NCBI GenBank assembly: GCA_026954015.1
Contig: JAIXLP010000069.1
Location: 31,419 to 76,678 of the forward strand
Reading direction: 5' to 3'
Source of the DNA: Burkholderiales bacterium
GTDB lineage: Bacteria; Pseudomonadota; Gammaproteobacteria; Burkholderiales; Burkholderiaceae_C
DNA length: 45,260 bases
A program made the position numbers and the translations under genes. A model generated the notes under the pieces. That model saw only the letters and a list, made by a program, of their open reading frames with translations, was not told the DNA's origin and did not search any database. Shown here piece by piece: positions 9,136 to 22,599 of the stretch (positions within the stretch are counted from its first letter, which is position 1; every line of letters starts with the position of its first letter).

Positions 9136-10653
9136 ATGCCCACACTTTTTGCCTGGCTTGGTAACTCAGACCTTCGCGCCTCGGAAGATGCGTCGGGCAC
9201 AGACTTCGGTCCCATCTTGATGGCGCTGGAGACCGGGGTGTATGACCGTCTAGTGCTCCTATCAGATCACGGTCAGCAGAAGACGCAGAACTTCGTGACG
9301 TGGCTGAGCGGCAAATTCACGGGGGCTACAGAAGTGCGGTACGCAAAACTGCGTAGCCCCACCGATTTCGAAGACATATACGTCGCAGCCAACGGAGCGG
9401 TGTCCGCGACGCTATCTTCTTCTCCTGAGCTGTCGGTCACTTTTCACGTGAGCCCTGGCACCCCTGCCATGGCTGCTGTCTGGGTGCTATTGGCGAAAGC
9501 CAAGTACGGGGCCAGCCTCATCGAATCCTCTCGTGAACACGGGGTGCGTCCTGTCGTTGTTCCGTTCGACCTGGCCGCCGAGTTCCTTCCAGTTGCGAGC
9601 AAGCAAGCTGACGAAACTCTCGCACACCTTGTCCAAGGATTGCCCCCGGCAGCGCCGGAGTTCGCCAGCATCATTCACCGCTGCAATGCGATGAAGCGTG
9701 TAGTCGCGATGGCGCAGCGATTGGCGCAACGGGATCTGCCCGTATTGATCCAAGGGGAGTCCGGGACCGGCAAGGAACTCTTCGCACGTGCGATCCACGC
9801 TTCCAGCAAGCGAAAAGGCGCCTCCTTTGTTGCAGTCAACTGTGGGGCCATCCCGCTCGAACTGATCGACTCCGAGCTTTTCGGTCATGAAAAGGGTGCG
9901 TTCACCGGTGCCCATGCAACCCGTGCTGGCTACTTTGAGGCAGCTGATGGCGGGACGCTTTTTTTGGACGAAATCGGTGAACTGCCGCTGCAGTCACAGG
10001 TTCGACTACTGCGCGTACTCCAGGAGCATGAGGTGACGCGCCTGGGGGCCAGTAAGTCCCGAAAAATCGATGTGCGCATCGTCGCCGCTACCAACCGGGT
10101 TCTGCCGGAAGAAGTTCGGGTGGGGCGATTCAGAGAGGATGTGTTTCATCGAATCGCGGTTGGCATCTTGGCGTTGCCTCCCCTGCGCGCTCGCGAAGGG
10201 GACCTCAATCTATTGATCGACGCTTTGCTGGCGCAGATCAATCGCGAAGCAACTTCCCAGCCGGGCTTTAAACATAAGACATTATCTGTTGGTGCAAGAA
10301 ATCTTCTTCTTCGCCACGCCTGGCCGGGCAATGTGAGGGAGCTGCACAACGCGCTTTTGAGGGCGTCCATCTGGGCGCCAGGAGAGGAGATAGCCGCCGA
10401 GGATATCGATGAGGTTCTCTCGCTCACAACCACCGGCACCGACGACGCCATTCTCGGGGCTGCAATTGGCGAGGGGTTTTCGCTGCCTGACCTGATGGCA
10501 GATGTAGCCCGGCACTACTTGGATAGGGCCATGGAGCAGAGTCGTGGCAACAAGACTGAGGCAGCGAAGCTGTTGGGTCTTGGCAGTTACCAAACTTTGA
10601 CGAATTGGTTGCTCAAGTACCAGTCCAAAAAAGCTGGCACGGATGGTGCATAA
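9136..10653 (+). CDS. RtcR-like sigma54 activator with N-terminal CARF-like sensor domain
   Basis: The 505-residue protein has three parts. Residues 1 to about 170 form a Rossmann-like sensor that resembles the RtcR N-terminus, with FHVSPGTPAMAAVW as the CARF-like ligand-binding signature. Residues about 175-415 are a sigma54-interacting AAA+ domain with Walker A GESGTGKE (about 207-214), GAFTGA (254-259, the sigma54 contact loop), Walker B GGTLFLDEIGELPL and the arginine-finger region. The C-terminus carries a Fis-type helix-turn-helix (NKTEAAKLLGLGSYQTLTNW). In RtcR such a domain senses RNA-derived ligands and switches on RNA repair genes. Here the likely target is the seven-gene unit directly downstream, which has its own sigma54 promoter overlapping the end of this gene. 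No good ribosome site precedes the ATG at 9136; an in-frame TAG at 9112 limits the start to this region. Confidence 0.9.
   Translation: MPTLFAWLGNSDLRASEDASGTDFGPILMALETGVYDRLVLLSDHGQQKTQNFVTWLSGKFTGATEVRYAKLRSPTDFEDIYVAANGAVSATLSSSPELSVTFHVSPGTPAMAAVWVLLAKAKYGASLIESSREHGVRPVVVPFDLAAEFLPVASKQADETLAHLVQGLPPAAPEFASIIHRCNAMKRVVAMAQRLAQRDLPVLIQGESGTGKELFARAIHASSKRKGASFVAVNCGAIPLELIDSELFGHEKGAFTGAHATRAGYFEAADGGTLFLDEIGELPLQSQVRLLRVLQEHEVTRLGASKSRKIDVRIVAATNRVLPEEVRVGRFREDVFHRIAVGILALPPLRAREGDLNLLIDALLAQINREATSQPGFKHKTLSVGARNLLLRHAWPGNVRELHNALLRASIWAPGEEIAAEDIDEVLSLTTTGTDDAILGAAIGEGFSLPDLMADVARHYLDRAMEQSRGNKTEAAKLLGLGSYQTLTNWLLKYQSKKAGTDGA
10635..10650 (+). promoter_or_regulatory. Sigma54 (-24/-12) promoter of the TerY-P/McrBC-like operon
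   Basis: TGGCACG-GATG-GTGCA matches the sigma54 consensus TGGCACG-N4-TTGCA at every position but one, with GG (10636-10637) and GC (10648-10649) exactly 12 bases apart. It overlaps the last codons of the CARF-sigma54 activator gene. The predicted start of transcription is near 10661, leaving a leader of about 167 bases to the vWA gene at 10828. Having a sigma54 activator next to a near-perfect sigma54 promoter strongly supports direct activation. Confidence 0.85.
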
Positions 10654-10654
10654 G

Positions 10655-20779: not shown

Positions 20780-22599
20780 TGTTTCTGGACCGCCTTACGG
20801 GTGGCAAACTCAGCCGCCTACCCGACGCACTTCTGCCGGGGCGGTATTGCTTGCTTGAGCCACTCTTGGTCAATGGACACAGCCGCTTGCAACCCGGTGA
20901 TCTGCTCTCAGATGACGGCTCGGGCGTAATCCGGACTCAAGACACAGAATCGCAAGTGCTCGCGATCGATCAGTCTGACGACGATCAGGCGGACTGCGAT
21001 CTGTCGGCAGAAGCGATTATTTCCATCGCCGGGAAAATCGCTCACGCACATGATGCAAATGTCTCGCCCATGCTGCCCGCTGAGATGGCCGCCCAATGCG
21101 CGCTCGAAGAACTCGAGCGCGACTTGGCGGTGGTCATCAGAGACGGTCATCTGCATTCAATATCTGACAGCCCCCGCAGAGACCTTCGATATGACGACTT
21201 GGTTGCGCCAGTGGCGCGAGCTCGACGCCTCGCGACTTCGGCATTAAGTCACCTGGCATCACACTCTGATTGCTGGCAGCAGCGTACGCTCAGCGGTGTT
21301 CAACCGCGCAAGGTTCTTGCACGTTTCAGCGAGGACGACTATGCCATCTATGAGAACAGGCTCTACAAGCGCTTACTGGATCGGCTAGATCGACACCTTG
21401 CCAGGAGATTGGCTCGCATCCGGGGAGTCAATTCACGACTGGAGCGAGCTTTGGAGTTCCAAGACTCTGAGCAGACGCATTTTCGACTTCGCCAGGATAT
21501 TTGTCGCCTTTGGGGCGAGTCATATCTTGATGACAAGACCGGGATGCAGTTGGAGGCAGGAAAGCGTGCACTCAGCGACTTGGAGTCTCAGTTGCGTGTA
21601 ATCAGAGGACTCAAGCAAAGGGGGCTTTATTCTCTGGTGCCTCCTGCATCTGTGGTTCCTGCCCAAGTTCACCGGACAAACATTCTCAACCACGACCCGC
21701 ACTATCGTCATCTGCCCCCGCTTTGGGAGAAGCTGAAAGATGATCGAGATGACCGGCTCTTACCCCCGGAAGAGCGCTTGGCGCGGCAACTGCAATTGCA
21801 ACTGGCTTACGTCAGTTACGTTGGTCTTGTGATCAGGCGGGCGCTTGAGCGGTATGGTCTGCGCAGAGTGGATGAAAATTTCGTCTTCAGTTGGGCGGGA
21901 CGGAGTTTCGTATTCCGACGCGATGTACATGATTGGGTCGTAACTCAGTCTCAGGGATCTACCCTGAGGATCGTGCCGATTGCCTGGTTCGGCGCGTCAA
22001 TAAATATCAGTGAGAGTCTGGAGCCTGGTCGCATCGTGTGTTGGCCAGGCGTGCCAACCAGTGTCGCATCGCCGCAGAGTCTTCCTGTCTCTCCGCTGGA
22101 CCTTTATGTCGTGGAGAAGGTGGGGAAGTTGATCGATGAGTGGATGTTGCGGCAATTGCTCCAAGGTCATGGCCGAAAATTGGGGCCGTTGCCCACACCG
22201 GCCAAAAGGCTAACCGAGGCTTGGCCAGAACAGTTTGAATCTATTTCGTCTACCCATGTCAGGCTCCTCGCGCCAGTCGATGCTCAGAAAGCAGCCGAAC
22301 TGAAGGCTTCACTCAAAGGCTCAGCTAATTCGCAAGTTGAGAATGCCGTCGGGGCCGCCATCGAACAGATCGCAACTCTTGCTGAGCTTTGTGGTCATCA
22401 GGCGCGATTCGTGCGAGGGCAGCAGCAGGACTTCTACTGCCAATGCGGAACTTGCCAGGCAACTTGGTCGCTCAAGACAACAGGGAAAAGGCGACACTTT
22501 TCTATGCGGCCGAAGGGGGCATCTGCCATACCAGAAGATGACGGCTTTCTTTGGTCTGGGAGGGATTGGCTGGAGTTCGATTTGGGTTCAGAACAGTGA
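20776..22599 (+). CDS. McrC-like protein with DUF2357-type N-terminus and C-terminal zinc-ribbon-like end
   Basis: The 607-residue protein is encoded directly after the McrB-like motor, as McrC is. The segment EDDYAIYENRLYKRLLDRL (about 195-213) matches the ENR phrase of McrC/DUF2357 N-terminal domains, which engage the McrB ring. McrC normally ends in a PD-(D/E)xK nuclease with an Asp and a (D/E)xK pair. I do not see such a pair here; the region around RSFVFRRDVHDW and LRIVPIAWFG could be a degenerate version. C539, C555, C557 and C560 near the C-terminus could bind zinc. It is the last gene of the unit. No hydrophobic segment is visible, so a cytosolic location is expected. Position and the ENR motif make the McrC assignment likely; nuclease activity is doubtful. 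Confidence 0.72.
   Translation: MMFLDRLTGGKLSRLPDALLPGRYCLLEPLLVNGHSRLQPGDLLSDDGSGVIRTQDTESQVLAIDQSDDDQADCDLSAEAIISIAGKIAHAHDANVSPMLPAEMAAQCALEELERDLAVVIRDGHLHSISDSPRRDLRYDDLVAPVARARRLATSALSHLASHSDCWQQRTLSGVQPRKVLARFSEDDYAIYENRLYKRLLDRLDRHLARRLARIRGVNSRLERALEFQDSEQTHFRLRQDICRLWGESYLDDKTGMQLEAGKRALSDLESQLRVIRGLKQRGLYSLVPPASVVPAQVHRTNILNHDPHYRHLPPLWEKLKDDRDDRLLPPEERLARQLQLQLAYVSYVGLVIRRALERYGLRRVDENFVFSWAGRSFVFRRDVHDWVVTQSQGSTLRIVPIAWFGASINISESLEPGRIVCWPGVPTSVASPQSLPVSPLDLYVVEKVGKLIDEWMLRQLLQGHGRKLGPLPTPAKRLTEAWPEQFESISSTHVRLLAPVDAQKAAELKASLKGSANSQVENAVGAAIEQIATLAELCGHQARFVRGQQQDFYCQCGTCQATWSLKTTGKRRHFSMRPKGASAIPEDDGFLWSGRDWLEFDLGSEQ

Follow-up and report, generated by a model that had tools for sequence, protein, structure and literature searches.

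The DNA considered here is a 45 kb stretch (45,260 nucleotides, hereafter the window) of contig JAIXLP010000069.1 in a Burkholderiales bacterium assembly, GCA_026954015.1, which is 84% complete. Between positions 9136 and 22599 the window contains a 13.5 kb operon of eight co-directional genes on the + strand, all of them open and, judged by their open reading frame coordinates, nearly gapless. It belongs to the Type II CoCoNuTs preceded by an RtcR-like gene, a kind of locus that is already known; our main concern is a predicted sigma54 promoter at the very end of the RtcR-like gene, from which the seven genes behind it would be transcribed. The features of the locus are as follows.

9072-9101, + strand: upstream of the activator gene, candidate sigma70-like promoter TTTCCA-18-TAGAAT (9/12 consensus positions)
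9136-10653, + strand: RtcR-like activator, with an N-terminal CARF-type region, an AAA+ sigma54 domain with a GAFTGA loop and a Fis-type helix-turn-helix (HTH)
10635-10650, + strand: predicted sigma54 -24/-12 promoter, TGGCACGGATGGTGCA (11/12 of the consensus scored)
10675-10725, + strand: Shine-Dalgarno GGAGG (10675-10679), conserved vWA start ATG 10687 and in-frame TGA (10723-10725)
10744-11505, + strand: TerY-like vWA protein from the shorter start; MIDAS-type motif DTSGS (Pfam VWA_2, E 1.1e-13; PADLOC TerY, E 0.0049 only)
11502-12206, + strand: PP2C phosphatase (Pfam PP2C_2, E 6.2e-40)
12203-13630, + strand: Ser/Thr kinase with a zinc ribbon of two C-x2-C pairs (Pfam Pkinase, E 1e-11, and motifs)
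13638-16952, + strand: CnuH, UPF1-like superfamily 1 helicase (Pfam AAA_12, E 3e-37; AAA_11, E 3.9e-33)
16942-18405, + strand: CnuE, with a winged HTH (residues 35-106) and a predicted HEPN RNase, R452-N453-x4-H458
17992-18216, + strand: exchanged CnuE segment (residues 351-425), before the HEPN motif
18407-20779, + strand: CnuB, a long coiled coil and McrB-type GTPase with Walker A GISGTGKT, Walker B LLDEMN and NxD motif NHDE (Pfam AAA_5, E 1.5e-5)
20776-22599, + strand: CnuC, a DUF2357 protein (E 4.4e-6) with a predicted inactive nuclease part and C-terminal cysteines

Three of the junctions (vWA/PP2C, PP2C/kinase and CnuB/CnuC) are overlaps of 4 bases, the helicase and CnuE genes overlap by 11 bases, and gaps of 7 bases and 1 base separate kinase from helicase and CnuE from CnuB. 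The start of CnuE is ATG 16942, as in its aligned homologues, and that of CnuB is ATG 18407; the listed open reading frame starts, at 16852 and at TTG 18365, are too early. No RNA family was detected within the operon. An initial annotation of this DNA had drawn an eight-gene unit at 9136-22599, and its order, strand and tight junctions are confirmed. The same annotation had recognized in the unit a TerY-P triad and a relationship to the CoCoNuTs. Both proposals are borne out, the former by the Pfam matches and motifs of the vWA, PP2C and kinase proteins, the latter by an NxD-bearing CnuB, a UPF1-like helicase, a DUF2357 CnuC lacking [DE]xK and a single HEPN motif.

According to the main text of Bell et al. 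(2024; PMC11090510), Type II is defined by a CnuE with a winged HTH and one HEPN, Type III-A having two; TerY-P is nearly always present in it, and the N-terminal part of its CnuH carries SmpB-like and RNase-toxin-like domains defined from structure. Here, both the TerY-P triad and the 5' RtcR homologue, which is frequent in Type II and not obligatory, are present. The NxD motif (NHDE or NQDE), which in CoCoNuTs of all types replaces NxxD, accompanies Walker A and B motifs in all 12 CnuB loci. The coiled coil of CnuB is indicated by composition (75% E, K, Q, R, A, L and D between residues 51 and 410, with 9 P/G in 360) and by weak matches to the coiled-coil families ATG14 and SMC. CnuH also matches the IGHMBP2-family model TIGR00376 (E 3e-35, below its cut-off). 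In Type II, CnuC combines DUF2357 with an inactivated PD-(D/E)xK and has no Hsp70-like domain. Across 53 CnuC sequences, residues 330-607 hold no conserved [DE]xK, cysteines C539, C557 and C560 are invariant, and Pfam returned no Hsp70 match to CnuC. The one R-x5-H of CnuE is invariant across 58 sequences, of which two match Pfam HEPN_RiboL-PSP (best E 0.0024). Among the points that count against the favored reading is the fold search with the CnuE model, which gave no match at E <=0.001 and no confident HEPN match; its list was filled by DNA-binding winged-HTH proteins, and Csm6 (5fsh) stood at rank 4 with E 0.45.

The idea that this could be a new defence system was rejected, since none of the defining Type II CoCoNuT features put to the test failed and the combination has been published. 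Bell et al. describe the same eight parts in the same order, and they too proposed an RNA-end signal; the initial annotation had rightly allowed for such a computational description. Its statement that it knew of no experimental study of the combination does not hold, since a Type II CoCoNuT of Pseudomonas aeruginosa has been tested against phages in strain PAO1, where from an inducible promoter all the systems tried except JukAB resisted at least one phage (PMC12735699, 2025). That system is of the same named type; it was driven from a vector promoter, and the accessible text of that report contains no study of its mechanism or sensor. Relative to the published Type II CoCoNuT, the window adds the sigma54 element at the stop codon and the exchange in the HEPN part; it is without the DUF4258 gene carried by L038 and, as a DUF4258-like frame, by L014. 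The position of the promoter and the HEPN exchange are absent from the literature searched, supplements and most subscription papers having been outside its reach; the main text of PMC11090510 has one passage on promoters, with no promoter sequence there.

The kinase-helicase-winged HTH core also resembles Mokosh type I, in which an RNA helicase with a kinase is joined by a PLD nuclease (PMC11672841, in its accessible text). The window's kinase and CnuH match residues 8-282 and 337-1082 of MkoA (E 7.8e-10 and 4.7e-93), and the winged-HTH part of CnuE matches MkoB 9-193 (E 2e-7). In contrast to Mokosh, however, kinase and helicase are separate genes here, CnuBC is added, and the nuclease is a predicted HEPN; the Pfam matches of CnuE and its 58 aligned members include no PLD family. 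Mokosh goes unmentioned in the main text of Bell et al., and the sole paper that we found naming both lists them, in its accessible part, as separate systems.

Sigma54 promoters were scored against TGGCACG-N4-TTGCW, with GG and GC held fixed. The match at 10635-10650, the sole one of 11/12 in the window, overlaps the last codons of the activator gene and abuts its stop codon (10651-10653). It thus lies downstream of a GAFTGA activator, in a genome that encodes RpoN (E 9.9e-64), and its use as a promoter is predicted on these grounds. The sensor gene would then be outside, and the seven other genes inside, the sigma54 transcript. The element occurs at the same place in seven relatives (L002, L003, L004, L006, L008, L009 and L037). 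In the set of 25 loci on which this pattern of position was discovered, 20 have a match of at least 10/12 within -60 to +250 of the activator stop, mostly no more than 25 bases away, whereas among other open frames of at least 600 bases in the same loci 5 of the 514 ends have such a match, as do 49 of 1860 windows placed at random. As a check, 399 genomes of the order were searched later; this yielded six new regulator loci, of which five have the element, with a 12/12 match in L055; the sixth, L058, contains no CoCoNuT or hsd match in its 19.5 kb (L064). Upstream of the activator, no + strand match of at least 9/12 was found in the 10 loci scanned over the 300 bases preceding the start. As a control, other sigma54 activators were examined in six loci; the gene end could be placed in one, and no site lay there.

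The five loci without the element at its usual place are varied. L010 (9/12) has a cut contig and a poorly placed gene end. In L038 (Polaromonas), a 9/12 match stands 46 bases before an annotated DUF4258 (BrnT-like) gene that lies between sensor and vWA genes; L014 has a DUF4258-like frame in the corresponding position (L014:2658-3900; E 1e-4, just below the cut-off), and its 10/12 match, at 3192, precedes that frame and lies 533 bases downstream of the activator stop. L044 is a sigma54 regulator that matches only from residue 106 and sits beside two-component genes. Finally, the CARF-type regulator of L011 (2166-3815; Geomonas), which belongs to a divergent CoCoNuT, has GAFTDA instead of GAFTGA as its loop and has perhaps lost its sigma54 dependence; this pairing of an altered loop with a missing element speaks for the sigma54 switch.

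Several observations weigh against this interpretation of the element. Of 100 shuffles of the operon's 13.5 kb, 15 produced an equally good match, and the scoring used a general consensus, so it is position and conservation that carry the argument. Seven of the first 25 loci, the window and six relatives, are close kin with activators 84-98% identical, and the independent cases are therefore fewer than the count of 20/25. The last 20 codons of the activator gene show a synonymous change of 0.30 versus 0.45 overall, but two other stretches have values of 0.30 and 0.31; an activator binding site inside the gene, sought through such constraint, gave no clear signal and was dropped, and none was identified elsewhere. 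Moreover, L059 has a GAFSGA loop yet possesses the element, so loop and element are not strictly coupled.

The same sensor and element also stand in front of genes of another kind. Matches to hsdR and hsdM follow the regulator in 13 of the 16 loci tested, the remaining three being L035, with a divergent CoCoNuT, and L043 and L064, with neither. In L013 (1-3900) one RtcR-like gene is flanked by an hsdR match and by the CoCoNuT genes, and a sigma54-like element (10/12) points each way: the sensor is inverted and faces hsdR, and the second element (+ strand, 3087) precedes the CoCoNuT genes. To judge from this arrangement, L013 is one sensor with two cargoes. On the other side of the balance, the element behind its sensor points away from the CoCoNuT.

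These distributions bear on the view that the Type II CoCoNuT is constitutive, in which read-through from the sensor gene would suffice, the TerY-P pair would do the switching, and the sigma54 element would only boost expression. Only 33 bases separate the activator stop from the conserved vWA start, and a sequence check found no terminator-like site between them; some basal expression by read-through from the activator is accordingly likely, a further point against an operon governed by sigma54. The near universality of TerY-P in Type II (PMC11090510, main text) favors the same view, as does the resistance obtained from an inducible plasmid promoter in PAO1 (PMC12735699; the accessible text does not state whether RtcR was in the clone), from which it follows that protection does not depend on the natural promoter. 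However, the element has been kept near the activator stop over large distances and also before Type I restriction-modification genes, and under constitutive expression it would be unneeded. We consider this view unlikely, although it is the strongest competitor of a sigma54-controlled operon.

What the sensor perceives is a separate question. The activator is of the RtcR_PspF2 CARF-AAA-HTH kind (PADLOC, E 7e-198), with Pfam matches to Sigma54_activat (E 3e-69) and HTH_8 (E 1e-6). In E. coli, activation of RtcR requires RtcAB (PMC9650030, accessible text), which counts against RNA-end sensing here: searches of the window's own assembly found neither RtcB nor RtcA. RtcB is present in 8 of the 14 other genomes that host such activators, and RtcA in 2 of 15 host genomes. 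That neither turned up in an assembly 84% complete suggests that sensing may not need RNA-repair enzymes, and this branch of sensors may, on our analysis, work differently from E. coli RtcR. It could also mean that the CARF region binds another signal, for example a cyclic oligonucleotide from another defence system, with the operon as a second line. The CARF region is indeed far from that of RtcR (Pfam RtcR N-term, E 0.0043, below the cut-off), and among its PADLOC matches are weak ones to Csx1/Csm6 and further CARF families. Nevertheless, the best full-length NCBIfam match is RtcR (NF038308; E 6e-102, residues 32-487, 342 bits, the equivalog cut-off of 650 not being reached), and we regard a different signal as improbable. 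The CARF-sigma54 logic advanced in the initial annotation was right, and its sigma54 step now has a promoter candidate; the ligand, the kinase/phosphatase switch and the RNA cleavage that it proposed are conjectural, in the published work as here.

The sigma70-like candidate before the sensor gene is weak taken alone, with 3 such matches in 2141 bases where shuffles average 1.0. Around 9085-9135, near the activator start, are a conserved TAGAAT box and a TGT-N4-ACA palindrome, which also occur in L003, L004, L006, L008 and L037. A gene for a WYL-domain regulator (7948-8868, - strand) diverges from the activator and is 92-98% identical beside the operon in L003, L006 and L008.

Scanning the genome collection with CnuE gave 13 loci; from a plasmid collection came four records, the best two of which were examined. 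The comparison took in 21 loci, and the entire unit is spanned by 11 of them (L002, L003, L004, L006, L008, L009, L011, L013, L014, L037 and L038); four of the other ten are short contigs and six were chosen by the regulator alone. The order and strand of the genes from vWA to CnuC are preserved in all 11 full-span relatives. Each of the 11 also has an RtcR-like gene upstream; only that of L013 is reversed, and that of L011 is no more than a 29% partial match. The seven genes are kept together across relatives beyond what chance would give, and the gene-neighborhood check named in the initial annotation thus speaks in its favor.

The window's copy of the vWA gene carries an early stop. The conserved start, behind a Shine-Dalgarno-like sequence, opens an intact frame in 7/7 relatives compared, but in the window a TGA follows after 12 codons; in L006 the activator gene has a stop at codon 290. 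Both early stops may be real losses or sequence errors. They raise the prospect that the window holds a decaying or assembly-damaged relict, nonfunctional here, and the early TGA, which leaves the vWA gene only its shorter start, tells to that extent against an active operon. However, the in-frame ATG 10744 retains the whole VWA domain, no stop interrupts the remaining seven genes, and L002, L003, L004, L006 and L008 encode counterparts of the eight proteins at 70-100% identity; an error of metagenome assembly is possible. We judge a relict the least probable of the alternatives.

The operon has probably travelled. Its proteins are 88-99% identical to those of L006, a Nitratidesulfovibrio contig, and for single proteins the identity reaches 99-100% in Azospira, Comamonas and Nitratidesulfovibrio. 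The last of these genera lies outside the Pseudomonadota. At E <=1e-20, CnuE was found in one of 399 genomes of the window's own order, which is its own genome, and in 3 of 398 genomes of the phylum, the two besides its own being weaker and partial. Because single proteins are nearly identical in these hosts while CnuE was not found at that threshold in the 398 other genomes sampled from the order, the sequences point to recent transfer, though contamination of the Nitratidesulfovibrio contig is possible. The G+C of the operon is 55.7% versus 64.8% for the window and ~70% beyond 23 kb; this low value and the rise in composition after 23 kb place the operon near the right end of an island.

To the left, an HsdR-like frame (395 residues) spans the window edge and is accompanied at 1298-7932 (- strand) by a RhuM-family gene (PADLOC PDC-S05), Type I HsdS and HsdM, and a GmrSD-type gene. 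Some 8.0-9.4 kb left of the window, a gene for a large serine recombinase (L066:10405-11826, - strand) is a candidate island mover. On the right side, an HD_5/DUF3391 protein (22870-24168, + strand) adjoins the operon where G+C climbs to ~70%, and a cobalamin riboswitch (25004-25250, + strand; E 2.8e-12) lies outside it.

Within this conserved unit, one part stands out. Compared with L006, the operon drops from 94% to 64% identity in the 300 bases from 17869 and is at 99% again from 18469; the corresponding values for L008 are 81, 56 and 88%. Among 58 CnuE proteins, 59 pairs are at least 88% identical in residues 1-300, and 30 of these pairs share no more than 55% over residues 351-425. There are two main alleles of this segment (26 and 15 sequences), and the tree of residues 1-300 requires at least 11 changes between them, as estimated by a quick method with no shuffled control. 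The catalytic R, N and H are nonetheless invariant. From these comparisons, it looks as if operons that are otherwise almost identical swap a part that forms a surface or sets specificity, under pressure of conflict. L003 has other local drops, to 62% from 12469 and to 48-58% over the last 830 bases. In L003 and L008 the final 830 bases of CnuC are far more diverged (44-62%), which raised the thought that this protein is exchanged too; this was rejected, since of 77 close pairs in a set of 53 proteins only 3 show a jump.

The reading that we favor, to which we assign a probability of roughly 0.62, is that of a Type II CoCoNuT whose RtcR-like sensor starts seven genes from the sigma54 motif when RNA is broken, and which cuts RNA to stop the infection. 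The sensor would be made constantly from its own promoter and kept inactive. Phage attack or anticodon nucleases would create RNA ends with a 2',3'-cyclic phosphate. Such ends are the proven ligand of the related RtcR. The activator would then open the sigma54 promoter, the TerY-P kinase/phosphatase pair would tune the activity, and CnuH with CnuBC would carry the HEPN domain to RNA. Its cuts would yield more ligand, amplifying the response until either the infection or the host's RNA is finished. Since metal-independent RNases such as HEPN would form the cyclic phosphate directly, RtcA would be unneeded; and since the sensor gene is upstream of the promoter, amplification would come through the ligand and not through extra sensor. 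In all this, the gene content and order, the motifs, their conservation and the place of the promoter motif are observed, and RNA-end sensing, the kinase/phosphatase switch and RNA cutting are what we infer. The scheme resembles RtcR/rtcBA in that a CARF-AAA+-HTH activator serves a sigma54 promoter. It differs in that E. coli rtcR lies opposite to rtcBA (PMC9650030, accessible text), whereas here sensor and cargo are co-directional and the cargo is destructive.

Neither the system nor its role in defence is new. CoCoNuTs are large and nearly unstudied at the bench, and a precise promoter candidate makes the regulatory prediction of 2024 testable. The match to Mokosh ties the kinase-helicase-winged HTH core to another phage-defence system, and the exchanged HEPN segment is where phage counter-measures are to be sought. 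The same element and sensor before Type I restriction genes suggest that RNA damage drives an inducible switch used in defence more generally. More tentatively, and as a possibility that we hold with clearly less confidence than our reading of the operon, there may exist a self-amplifying RNA-damage switch that dispenses with RtcA and RtcB, a portable sensor-promoter cassette shared by different cargoes (CoCoNuT, Type I restriction and, at one locus, both), in which the HEPN part is swapped like an antigen and would thereby mark the face that phage inhibitors attack.

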